Origin: Natronomonas sp. CBA1123
Lineage (GTDB): Archaea > Halobacteriota > Halobacteria > Halobacteriales > Haloarculaceae
DNA: 64,000 bases
Assembly (NCBI RefSeq): GCF_009741925.1
Contig: NZ_WPCC01000004.1
Span: 1 to 64,000 of the forward strand
Reading direction: 5' to 3'
Shown here: positions 29,533 through 42,245 of the stretch, one piece after another
Layout: each line of letters opens with the position of its first letter
Numbering within the stretch: the first letter of the stretch is position 1
Notes under the pieces: model-generated
Database searches by the model: none
Told to the model about the DNA's origin: nothing
What the model saw: only the letters and a program-made list of their open reading frames with translations
Made by a program: the position numbers and the translations under genes

Positions 29533-29644
29533 CCGACGGACGCTCCGAGTATCGTCCGCCGGCCGGTTGATGTCCCATTACTCTCCAACGTCTGTTTGGA
29601 AATGTATCAATCAATAACCAATTATATGTTATTTCGACCTAGAT

Positions 29645-29684
29645 AACTATTTATTATAGTTGTGAGTACGTAAAATTTGGAGGT
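29645..29684 (+). promoter_or_regulatory. Promoter dyad and strong Shine-Dalgarno before five-gene cluster
   Basis: In an AT-rich interval, AACTAT (29645-29650) and ATAGTT (29656-29661) form an inverted repeat around TTATT, overlapping a TATA-like stretch. A perfect GGAGGT at 29679-29684 stands seven nt before the ATG at 29692. Such a strong ribosome site is unusual for haloarchaeal first genes, many of which are leaderless. It fixes the start and implies a leadered message. Confidence 0.5.
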
Positions 29685-29691
29685 ACAAACA

Positions 29692-30222
29692 ATGTCAGTC
29701 GGACAAGAACTACTAGACGTGCCGCTTCCCGAGATGGTTGCCAGCCTCGGTCAGGGTATCGCCGACGCACAGCATCAACTCGACATGAACTCGGTGGAGG
29801 TCGCAAAGACCCTCGCCGAAACGGAAATCGAGGTCGTGCCCGCGATAACTCGCACTATCAACGCCGACGGGAGCGTCGATTACGACTCCGCGGACGCTAT
29901 CGACGTTTCCCTGCTGCAGGCCGGGATGTTCCCGACGTTCTATCAGTTCTCCGAGGCGACTATCGAGGTCGAGATGGACATCAAGACTACCACGTCGACG
30001 GAGACGCAGGTAGACGTAAGCGCCAGCGGCAAGGTCGGGTTCGGTCTCTGGAGCGCCCGCATCGACACCGACGTGAGTCACAACCGGAAGTTCGGCAAGG
30101 AGGTCCACGGCACGAGCAGGCTGGTGACGAAGATGCAGCCGGTTCCGGAACCGCCGTACCTGTTCCCGGAAGTCGAAACCGTCGACAATCGGCCGTCGGG
30201 CGACGGCGAGACCGAAGCCTGA
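29692..30222 (+). CDS. Module protein A of the five-gene cluster (unknown)
   Basis: A 176-residue acidic protein starting MSVGQELLDVPLPEMVASLG. It has an N-terminal helical module GIADAQHQLDMNSVEVAKTL (about residues 19-38) and then VVPAITRTI. The next segment, TFYQFSEATIEVEMDIKTTTS, begins a beta-rich half that includes the aromatic FGLWSARIDTDVS and a KMQPVPEPP close to the end. No signal peptide or membrane segment is visible. The same layout recurs in the next two products, marking a paralogous family. I do not recognise it. A structural or scaffold role in an oligomer is possible, and that is speculation. Confidence 0.8.
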   Translation: MSVGQELLDVPLPEMVASLGQGIADAQHQLDMNSVEVAKTLAETEIEVVPAITRTINADGSVDYDSADAIDVSLLQAGMFPTFYQFSEATIEVEMDIKTTTSTETQVDVSASGKVGFGLWSARIDTDVSHNRKFGKEVHGTSRLVTKMQPVPEPPYLFPEVETVDNRPSGDGETEA

Positions 30223-30270
30223 ACCACCCGAATCTCGCATTTCCCACGCTTACCACCCGAAACTGTCACC

Positions 30271-30810
30271 ATGCCAATTCGACCGTCGGACCTACAACAT
30301 CGAGGTACCGCTCACACACAGCCGGTTCGCGAAGAGCTTGACGTCCCGTTCGACGACCTGCTATACCTACTCGCGGAGGGAATCGCCAGCGCACAGACGA
30401 AACTCGACCTCTCGACGGCCGAACTGCTCGAAACCCTCGCGGAGACCGAAGTCGACGTCGTCCCGCAACTCACCCGCCGAATCGACGAACACGGCGGGGT
30501 CGAGACCGAATCGGCCGCCACCGAATCGCGGTCGCTGCTCGAACTCGGCTTTACACCGACTCGCTATCAGTTCTCGGAAGCCACCCTCGAGGTCGGTGTC
30601 GACATCCGATTCAGCGAGGAAGGCGAACGCGAAAGCGAGTCCGAAGGGCGACGTCTCGGGCTCCGCGCGGGCACCTACGAGGTGACCGAACAGCGCAAAT
30701 ACGACCGCGAGGTCGAGGCGAACGCACGAATCAACGCGCGACTCCAGCCGGTTCCACTCCCCGTCGAGTTGTCGCCCACCGAGACGCGTGACACTCCGGA
30801 GGGTGAGTGA
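30271..30810 (+). CDS. Module protein B of the five-gene cluster (unknown)
   Basis: A 179-residue paralogue of the preceding protein. After a 20-residue N-terminal tail it shows GIASAQTKLDLSTAELLETL (about residues 37-56), VVPQLTRRID and RYQFSEATLEVGVDIRF (about 96-112). EQRKYDREVEANARINARLQ is followed by PVPLPVELSP. A charged stretch rich in Glu and Arg (ERESESEGRR) replaces the short linker of protein A. The 48-nt gap to the previous gene and the TGATG overlap with the next one indicate one transcript. Confidence 0.8.
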   Translation: MPIRPSDLQHRGTAHTQPVREELDVPFDDLLYLLAEGIASAQTKLDLSTAELLETLAETEVDVVPQLTRRIDEHGGVETESAATESRSLLELGFTPTRYQFSEATLEVGVDIRFSEEGERESESEGRRLGLRAGTYEVTEQRKYDREVEANARINARLQPVPLPVELSPTETRDTPEGE

Positions 30811-31199
30811 TGTCGACCGAGCAGTGGGCCTCCAGACCGCTGAAGGAGTTCATTCGGTCGCTGGCCGTCTCCGTCGCGGAGGGGCAAGAGGAGTTGGACC
30901 GTCGGACGATGCGGGTCCAGCGGGAACTCGAACGTGCCGCCGAGAGCGGCGAACTCGACGTCCAGATGGACGCCTCGTGGCTCCGGTTTTCAGAGGTCGA
31001 AGCCGACCTCCAAATCGCCGTCTCCATCGAGGGCGAGGAGATTCGCGACGACAGCGGGACGGTCCGTGGCTACCGCCCGAAACTCGGGGCGACGCCAGTC
31101 AACCCCCGCTCCCGGAGTCAGTTCGACATCGACGCGGAAATGACAAGCGAGGTGACCGTGCGTATGGTCCCTGTTCCCCCGGAGCGTCGACAGTCATGA
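30810..31199 (+). CDS. Module protein C of the five-gene cluster (unknown)
   Basis: A 129-residue shorter member of the same family. It opens MSTEQWASRPLKEFIRSLAV and carries SVAEGQEELDRRTMRVQREL (about residues 21-40) aligned with the helical module of A and B. WLRFSEVEADLQIAVSI (about 58-74) aligns with the YQFSEATIEVEMDI segment. The end again has MVPVPPE, like the QPVPEPP and QPVPLP of A and B. The ATG at 30810 shares a base with the previous stop; a GTG three bases upstream is less likely. Confidence 0.78.
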   Translation: MSTEQWASRPLKEFIRSLAVSVAEGQEELDRRTMRVQRELERAAESGELDVQMDASWLRFSEVEADLQIAVSIEGEEIRDDSGTVRGYRPKLGATPVNPRSRSQFDIDAEMTSEVTVRMVPVPPERRQS

Positions 31200-32173
31200 G
31201 CGGTAAGAAGTTTCCGACCGACGACCGCCGATACGTGAGTGCCCGGTCGTTTCAACTCGAAGAGATTCCGCAGGTCGAAACGAAGAAACTCGAAACCATC
31301 GAGCGGGCGGCCATCGAACGCGCTGTCAGCGAACGCGAAGCCATCATCCAGAACCTCCAGACGGACGTTCTGGAGATTCGTGGCGAGCGAAACGCCCTCG
31401 AAAGTCAACTCTCTCGTCTGGAGTCCGAGCGCGACGACCTCCGAGACCGCATCCAGCAACTCGAAGTCGAGCGCCCGAAACTCGAACCGAAGACGGTGTT
31501 TTCGAACCTCGGGTCGGCCGTCGGGGACGTACGGACGGAACTCGATGCGGCCAACTACACCATAGACGACGTGGCGTTTTCGCTCAAAGCCAACGTGATA
31601 CAGGACAACGACGGGATTCGGCTGCACTTGCCGTCGCTCGACGAGCGGTTCGCAAGCGAGAACCTGAGTGAAATCTCCTTCCGGGTCCGTGCGGGCGACT
31701 CAGAGCCGGAGGGCCCGGAAGCCGACTACAGCGAGGTGCCGGACCTCCTGGGAACCGACTTGGAGACGGCGAGAGGGCGACTGAACCGGGCCGGACTCTC
31801 CGTCGGGGAGGTCACGACGGTGGAAGACGCCACGTCGCCGCCGAACGCCGTCGTCGACCAGTTCCCCGAACCGTACGCCCTCGCACCACCGGAGGCCCCG
31901 GTCGATTTGACGGTCGCCGACGAACGCCACGTCGAGGACGCCGACTCGGATGCCGACTCCGAACCGACGGAACCAACCGAGAAACAGCCGTCGGAATCGC
32001 TTGAGGCCATCGACGGCATCGGGCCGACGTACGCAGAGCGCCTGCGCGATGCGGGCGTCGCCGGCGTCGCGGCGCTGGCGGAGATGGACCCCAAAGCGGT
32101 CGCCGAAATCGCTAACACCTCCAACAGTCGGGCCGAGTCGTGGGTCGAACAGGCGCGGTCGATGCTGACGTGA
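31196..32173 (+). CDS. Coiled-coil, PASTA and helix-hairpin-helix protein
   Basis: A 325-residue protein with no signal or membrane helix. Residues about 20-98 form a coiled coil (for example SQLSRLESERDDLRDRIQQL). A beta-type region follows at about 100-160 (VFSNLGSAVGDVRTEL, VAFSLKANVIQDNDG) that echoes the beta half of proteins A-C. Residues about 178-240 match a PASTA domain (VPDLLGTDLETARGRLNRAG, then PNAVVDQFPEP). After an acidic linker, residues about 268-325 are a helix-hairpin-helix bundle (IDGIGPTYAERLRDAGV). PASTA is normally outside bacterial cells on PknB-type kinases, so a cytosolic archaeal use is unusual. The ATGA overlap couples it to protein C. Confidence 0.8.
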   Translation: MSGKKFPTDDRRYVSARSFQLEEIPQVETKKLETIERAAIERAVSEREAIIQNLQTDVLEIRGERNALESQLSRLESERDDLRDRIQQLEVERPKLEPKTVFSNLGSAVGDVRTELDAANYTIDDVAFSLKANVIQDNDGIRLHLPSLDERFASENLSEISFRVRAGDSEPEGPEADYSEVPDLLGTDLETARGRLNRAGLSVGEVTTVEDATSPPNAVVDQFPEPYALAPPEAPVDLTVADERHVEDADSDADSEPTEPTEKQPSESLEAIDGIGPTYAERLRDAGVAGVAALAEMDPKAVAEIANTSNSRAESWVEQARSMLT

Positions 32174-32481
32174 CGATGGATATGGCAGAGCGGTTCGGCG
32201 CCGACATCACCGTCGAGGGGCCGGCGTCGGATGTCGTCGGAACGTTCCTCGTGAAACGCCCCGAAAACGTCGACCACGACCAGTTCATGGTCGGATTGCT
32301 CGGTGCCATCGGTTCTCCCGACCGACTCGTGATGCACCACCGTTCGGGGTTTGCGGTCGTCGTGCTACTATATGGCCGAGCCCAGCGGCTGAAAGCGTAT
32401 CCGTGGGTGGAAACGGTCGGTGGCATCCGATTCGACCCAGAGCGCTTTGCGGCGGTGACTGGGACCTCCGCCCCGCTTTGA
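32170..32481 (+). CDS. Small protein ending the five-gene cluster (possible I9-like)
   Basis: A protein of 101-103 residues; GTG at 32170 (GTGA overlap with the previous stop) is favoured, ATG at 32176 is an alternative. The pattern GTFLVKRPENVDHDQFMV, then HRSGFAVVVLLYGRAQRLK and YPWVETVGGIRFD, recalls the inhibitor I9/subtilisin propeptide fold (strand, helix, GFA strand, helix, P-x-V strand). This is a weak visual similarity. No subtilase gene is nearby. It is the last plus-strand gene before the convergent HIT gene, which is three bases away. Confidence 0.6.
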   Translation: MTMDMAERFGADITVEGPASDVVGTFLVKRPENVDHDQFMVGLLGAIGSPDRLVMHHRSGFAVVVLLYGRAQRLKAYPWVETVGGIRFDPERFAAVTGTSAPL

Positions 32482-41419: not shown

Positions 41420-42245
41420 CTACTCCACGTCTTCGGGGTCACGCGGCCGCGTCCCGTGGAACCGTCGCGGTTTCTGTTCTTCGCGTGCGAGGAACGCCTC
41501 GGCGCGCTCCTGGAACTCCGGGGAGTCCCACACTCGGGCGGTGAGGTCTCGGGCCATCTCCTGGCCGGTCAACCCGAGGTTCGTCCACTGTTTCATGACG
41601 GCCTTGATGGTTCGGTAGGCCTGTGGACTCTTCTCGTCGGCGATGGTCGTGAGAATCTCCGCGGCCTTCGCCTCGGCGTCGCCGTCGTCGACGACGCGGT
41701 TGATGAGGCCGATAGATTTCGCCTCCTCGGCCTCCAGCAGTCGCCCCGTCAACAGCAGGTCCCGGGCGCGTTTTTTCGCCAATCATCAGCGGGAGCAACT
41801 GCACGCCGCCGCCGGCGGCCGTCGAGCCGACGCCGACCTCCGGTTGGCCGAAGCGGGTCGACTCGCCGGCGACGATGAGGTCACACGCCGAGGCGAGTTC
41901 GTTGCCGCCGGCGACGCAGGTCCCCTCGGCGGCGGCGACCACGGGCTTGCCCGTATCGCGCAGCAAATCCAGCGTCTCGAAGTACGCCGTCATCCAGCGG
42001 GCGCCCTCCTCCCACTGTAGTTCGGTCAACTCCGCGAGCGAGGCCCCCGAACAGAAGGGCGGTTCGGTCGACCCGAGGAGGATGCCGCGGACGTCGTCGT
42101 CGCGGTCGGCGTCGGTAATCGCGACGGTCAACTCGTCGAGGACACGGGAATCGAGGACGTTGTTGCGGTCGGCGCGGTCGAACCGAATCCGTGCGATACG
42201 GTCGTCCTCGGGATGGCGGTCGACGGCGATGGTTTCGTACGACAT
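41420..42245 (-). pseudogene. Enoyl-CoA hydratase/isomerase family protein, frameshifted
   Basis: A crotonase-fold enzyme. The upstream part begins MSYETIAVDRHPEDDRIARI, includes the oxyanion-hole segments CSGASLAELTE and VAAAEGTCVAGGNELASACD, and then loses frame in a run of six A on the coding strand (41771-41776). With five A it reads LMIGEKRARDLLLTGRLLEA and continues to the stop at 41420, a total of about 274 residues. The crotonase Glu position after GGNEL is present. It would hydrate enoyl-CoA, fitting the CoA ligases nearby. A one-base homopolymer error is likely. Confidence 0.85.

Follow-up and report, generated by a model that had tools for sequence, protein, structure and literature searches.

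The window, which is the whole 64,000-nucleotide stretch of Natronomonas sp. CBA1123 DNA analysed here (GCF_009741925.1, NZ_WPCC01000004.1, positions 1–64,000, forward strand), contains at 29692–32481 a cluster of five co-directional genes, A to E (Table 1). The strong Shine–Dalgarno sequence and the AT-rich stretch that a sequence-only reading had placed ahead of the cluster are both present, the former as GGAGGT, while a promoter there remains putative. That reading also described the genes as packed with overlaps, and this holds for B/C (TGATG), C/D (ATGA) and, by way of an alternative GTG start of E at 32170 that reaches the stop codon of D, for D/E (GTGA), but not for A, which lies 48 bp ahead of B. 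All five open reading frames were recovered by codon-usage gene calling with no competing frame, and comparison with the nearest relative, N. gomsonensis (L038), gave low dN/dS ratios (A ~0.02, B 0.08, C 0.09, D 0.2, E 0.15). Because the same genes are also syntenic in many other genomes (see below), the cluster is more than a chance arrangement: A to E are real genes under purifying selection. As had been claimed, none of the five proteins contains an obvious signal or membrane helix (maximum 19-residue hydropathy ≤1.0 in all five), and cysteine is absent from all of them. The neighbours of the cluster in the window are metabolic rather than defence genes. Further along, a short enoyl-CoA-hydratase-like frame with an apparently truncated N-terminus (41420–41782) is possibly a remnant.

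Table 1. The gene cluster and its larger bacterial relatives. Positions are those of the window, except in the last row, which gives loci in other genomes.
Feature	Position	Strand	Remarks
Upstream region	29600..29691	+	AT-rich; Shine–Dalgarno GGAGGT just before the ATG of A, read directly; promoter role putative
Gene A, 176 aa	29692..30222	+	N-terminal helix and beta region; slowest-evolving subunit; remote kin of DUF2589
Gene B, 179 aa	30271..30810	+	Paralogue of A
Gene C, 129 aa	30810..31199	+	Remote third paralogue by profile comparison
Gene D, 325 aa	31196..32173	+	Coiled coil, helix and small beta domain, PASTA, HHH
Gene E, 101 aa	32176..32481	+	Small and conserved; its counterparts in bacteria are upstream of A
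Operons of about ten genes	L066, L067, L073, L080, L085, L088–L090, L097, L099, L105		One A-type paralogue split by ~400 aa; OmpA confirmed in L099

Three of the genes had been proposed to be paralogues. Judged by their sequences, A and B clearly are (42% identity over 167 aa, E = 1e-35, BLAST), whereas C, whose relation to them is not detectable by BLAST, is linked to A and B at profile level only (99%) and is a remote third paralogue. AlphaFold gave only a weak model of A (mean pLDDT 66), with a confident N-terminal helix (12–43) and strands, among them long ones at 83–98 and 137–151, but with residues 98–140 unresolved (below 50). This unresolved part is nevertheless conserved (mean majority frequency 0.75), and residues 88–112 show a strict alternation of hydrophobic and polar residues that none of 2000 shuffles equalled, with a weaker alternation in the return strand (p = 0.02). 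Because the unresolved part is both conserved and, over 88–112, strictly alternating, A likely carries a long amphipathic beta-hairpin (about 88–150) with a conserved glycine- and aromatic-rich tip, KVGFGLW, although the hairpin has not been shown. A Foldseek search of the model against the PDB returned only noise (the small chain of 8kic, ‘bacterial serine protease’, at E = 3.5), and PDB sequence searches with A, C and E gave no match.

A hairpin of this kind raises the question of whether A-type subunits could close into a beta-barrel whose glycine/aromatic tips enter a membrane, i.e. a membrane-inserting or pore-forming assembly. The 25-residue alternating strand, the KVGFGLW tip and the alternating return strand would all fit, as would the glycine-rich hydrophobic tips in the variant A′ and in larger relatives and the aromatic tips in DUF2589 (all described below). 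Ordinary beta-sandwiches alternate likewise, however, so that this is a sequence pattern only; with no fold match to pore-forming proteins, and with the hairpin unresolved in the model, we consider a pore very improbable.

No characterised family of known role matched A, B or C, in keeping with the earlier expectation. The sole convincing relative is DUF2589 (PF11655), a family of unknown function, with which A aligns over the whole domain in hhalign (96.1%, E = 3e-9, 169 columns), against 0.1–0.6% for nulls made of six column-shuffled profiles and one reversed profile; the Pseudanabaena B protein (L110, assigned as B by position) was left out of the DUF2589 profile. Independent support comes from a Chlorobium A query, which retrieved two Chlorobiaceae proteins at E of about 4e-4, both members of DUF2589. 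Against the Pfam DUF2589 model itself (gathering threshold 23 bits) the window A, B and C have no match at E ≤ 1, and the Pseudanabaena B protein scores 21.5 bits, with 1 of 72 members matching at E = 0.0055; C alone gave no significant profile match to the family. We take A and B, and C through A, to be distant kin of DUF2589, whose members resemble A in an N-terminal helix, an SLL/PLL motif and a beta-hairpin, and occur as adjacent paralogue pairs. Unlike A–E, the DUF2589 loci inspected have no recognised PASTA/HHH coiled-coil partner or E-type gene. The sole paper on DUF2589 that we found reports that the Archaeoglobus cluster AF0414–AF0417 is up-regulated on lactate (PMC3949148).

Other known families and systems compare less well. 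A has a weak match to Trypco2 (PF19631; 18 bits, E = 0.0036), the VMAP adaptor, and by eye the two share a layout of a short helix plus strands. The match lies below the gathering threshold (24.2 bits) and profile–profile comparison was insignificant, so we do not assign A to Trypco2. The window cluster also differs from VMAP in lacking a trypsin, MoxR or vWA partner; no trypsin-like peptidase or VMAP neighbour lies near it, and no GDSGGP-type protein was found in the loci examined. In Myxococcus (L141:7316–14768), a Trypco2 gene directly precedes one encoding a 2368-aa protein, the arrangement described for VMAP systems; the same contig carries an A homologue ~60 kb away. A viral or phage-tail particle was rejected, as neither IMG/VR nor the GenBank phages held a relative of A, and A, C and E matched no PHROG. 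Among PADLOC families none was convincing for A–E, with only weak coiled-coil/PASTA-type matches for D; in the absence of system-specific proteins, a PADLOC-listed defence system is not supported. A role as gas-vesicle accessory was likewise rejected: in a genome-wide search the Gas_vesicle family (PF00741) was present in 4 of 30 carriers and missing from the other 26 and from this genome, and no sequence relation was found. GvpA serves as an analogy only, as a small structural protein of very high conservation whose paralogues share one mobile cluster in archaea and bacteria.

The sequence-only reading of D as a coiled-coil/PASTA/HHH protein is confirmed by Pfam scores above the gathering thresholds for PASTA (38.8 against 23.2 bits) and HHH_5 (43.5 against 27). 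The order is coiled coil (34–92), helix and small beta domain (98–166), PASTA (180–241) and HHH (267–321), and the predicted model matches solved PASTA folds (Foldseek E = 7e-5), with weaker matches to HHH domains of the RadA/Rad51 type. The PASTA domain of D is a genuine one, shared with PknB and PBP2x, but D lacks a membrane helix, kinase or transpeptidase and comes from an archaeon without peptidoglycan. The suggestion that E is I9-like is not supported: E matches no Pfam family at E ≤ 1, Inhibitor I9 included, and has no NCBIfam or PDB-sequence match.

The HHH domain of D opens another possibility, that of a cytoplasmic scaffold associated with DNA or metabolism, in which HHH binds nucleic acid and PASTA is only a protein–protein module. 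Its similarity to RadA/Rad51 N-terminal domains points this way, and the lactate response of AF0414–AF0417 (PMC3949148) suggests a housekeeping or energy role. Among the D-type proteins scanned, however, HHH_5 occurs in only 18 of 28 and PASTA in all 28, and the bacterial D proteins of the E-A-B-C-D type (see below) end after the small beta domain; such a scaffold thus seems improbable to us.

A is present in 14 of 242 genomes in an even sample of Halobacteria, where the cluster forms an islet in varying surroundings, and a scan with one genome per species yielded 69 loci, whose gene order and completeness were checked with tblastn and gene calling. Synteny, the absence of which would have spoken against the sequence-only reading, proved to extend beyond the window: the five genes occur together in other archaea and also in bacteria. 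Complete sets come in three gene orders. Natronomonas, Halorubrum and Halococcaceae have A-B-C-D-E, and four further haloarchaea (L030, L031, L061 and L072, with E there located by the gene caller) have C-D-E-A-B. The order is E-A-B-C-D in Chlorobium and other Chlorobiaceae, Pseudanabaena, Coleofasciculus, Clostridia and Sphaerotilus; short contigs, those of Dehalococcoidia among them, follow this last order as far as each extends, and two Chloroflexota loci have A-B-C-D with E not recognised (four of five genes). Rotating a single cycle yields all three orders. By our own count ~4 of 20 single-block moves give a rotation, which puts the chance of two agreeing moves at ~0.04; we regard the rotated orders as suggestive of a circular intermediate rather than as proof of one. 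In profile comparisons between bacterial and haloarchaeal counterparts, the small domain of D reached 92% and E 98%, against 23% for C, and the equivalence of C and D between the two groups rests partly on position, that of C on position.

The distribution of the set is very patchy. Only 1 of 61 genomes of the Chlorobium family has it in full, while a plasmid of the betaproteobacterium Sphaerotilus sulfidivorans carries a complete copy; other haloarchaea have a shorter variant, A′-C-D-E′, and a similar four-gene form occurs in Methanolobus. An empty-site comparison with other Natronomonas gave no insertion boundaries, the flanking phosphorylase gene being absent or in a different neighbourhood.

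A phylogeny of the A- and B-type proteins, built by a quick method and with some long branches flagged, places bacterial and archaeal B on one side of a branch and A on the other (SH-aLRT 100), so the A/B duplication took place before the set spread across Archaea and Bacteria. The haloarchaeal A′ groups with Calditrichota (support 99), pointing to a second acquisition. Window A is 60–69% identical to copies from the bacterial five-gene form, compared with 31–35% for IleRS from the same genomes, and within the set conservation drops steeply from A outward (identity to Sphaerotilus: A 65%, B 43%, C 31%, D 21%, E 31%). The simplest account is that the set spreads horizontally and that A is exceptionally constrained. 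Although A occurs in only a few per cent of genomes, its conservation is twice that of a universal tRNA synthetase.

Larger relatives occur in Alphaproteobacteria, Gemmatimonadales, Latescibacterota, Marinobacterium and Flavobacteriales as operons of about ten genes, themselves also an undescribed system, which encode between four and six A-type paralogues together with a TPR protein and members that bear PASTA. All ten relatives of 575–602 aa have an interrupted A domain, of which the first section lies at the N-terminus and the last at about 500–594, with ~400 aa inserted at the position of the hairpin. The insert of the Rhodobacter aestuarii protein, the only one of the ten scanned, contains an OmpA domain (286–370, E = 3e-17, Pfam). 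An operon of Youngiibacter fragilis (L075:1544–11051) combines A-type paralogues with CHAT, C25-like, amidohydrolase-like and TPR-like proteins, and a Youngiibacter protein, encoded beside the CHAT and C25-like genes, fuses HHH, a C-type domain and PASTA.

These gene contents bring in the main rival to the explanation that we prefer below, namely that A–C are adaptors of a conflict or immunity scaffold, which, once they detect invasion or damage to the envelope, would assemble and bring in effectors of the peptidase type, as Trypco2 does in VMAP. It owes this place to reports that OmpA and PASTA serve in iSTAND conflict systems as effector domains associated with peptidoglycan (PMC7159879) and to the one locus with CHAT; the C25-like and TPR-like genes beside CHAT in Youngiibacter, the TPR genes of the alphaproteobacterial operons, the weak Trypco2 match of A and the patchy, mobile distribution would also agree with it. 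Yet the Trypco2 match fails its cut-off and finds no support in profile comparison, PADLOC offers no convincing family, the CHAT motif is confined to a single locus, the five-gene form has no effector and its neighbours in the window are metabolic. On this evidence we think a conflict scaffold unlikely, though less so than either a pore or a DNA-associated scaffold.

Our best explanation, which we put forward tentatively and with less than even confidence, is that the set is a horizontally transferred module whose products would assemble into one soluble, cytosol-made hetero-oligomer. A would form the structural core, with B and C as diverged copies at distinct positions, D as a tether of coiled coil that ends in PASTA and HHH domains for ligand binding, and E as a small accessory. 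Each A-type subunit would project its hairpin as an arm, and hairpin tips and PASTA domains would be presented to the cell envelope or to another polymer. That the products of A–E form one conserved complex is an inference, and in our subjective judgement a highly probable one; it is supported by the Youngiibacter fusion. Since the large relatives add a wall-binding domain at the hairpin site, it is plausible that the tip makes the contact, and the PASTA domains of D and of some C-type proteins also point to envelope contact. That the assembly is envelope-directed is nevertheless also inferred and, again subjectively, somewhat doubtful. OmpA and PASTA domains bind peptidoglycan in bacteria, haloarchaea have none, and HHH domains are often DNA-binding. 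Without a signal or membrane helix, moreover, access to the envelope would require lysis, non-classical export or membrane insertion, and these missing signals together with the lack of haloarchaeal peptidoglycan are the main difficulties. The weak model of A, without a PDB match, also counts against the preferred hetero-oligomer.

What had been proposed as an undescribed multi-subunit assembly is supported in that no described system in the open-access literature matches the set, although it is not restricted to archaea and the single complex is still inferred. It is an undescribed system rather than an unseen protein family, as its DUF2589 relatives are known as sequences. That Archaea and Bacteria keep the same members in the same cyclic order, with a core protein as conserved and as sparsely distributed as A, implies a strong and portable function for which no annotation accounts. 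The cluster also provides a setting for DUF2589, to which Pfam assigns no function, and for archaeal PASTA proteins. It is conceivable, if rather unlikely, that the five- and ten-gene forms are evolutionary variants of a new class of mobile machine common to Archaea and Bacteria, a cytosol-assembled hetero-oligomeric beta-hairpin particle made from an exceptionally conserved protein that moves by horizontal transfer and acting on membranes or walls, with the DUF2589 loci as a sister branch. Halorubrum and a possible Archaeoglobales family (L135–L138) have pairs of DUF2589 genes followed by a third small gene. We do not claim kinship between the small beta domain of D and the C-terminal part of the third gene product of the Archaeoglobus-like loci (hhalign 31–37%, not significant). 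In Sphingomonas trueperi (L142:5644–8391), two adjacent DUF2589-type genes lie beside one for a DUF4157/eCIS-core-like protein, recognised by eye from its HELAH motif.
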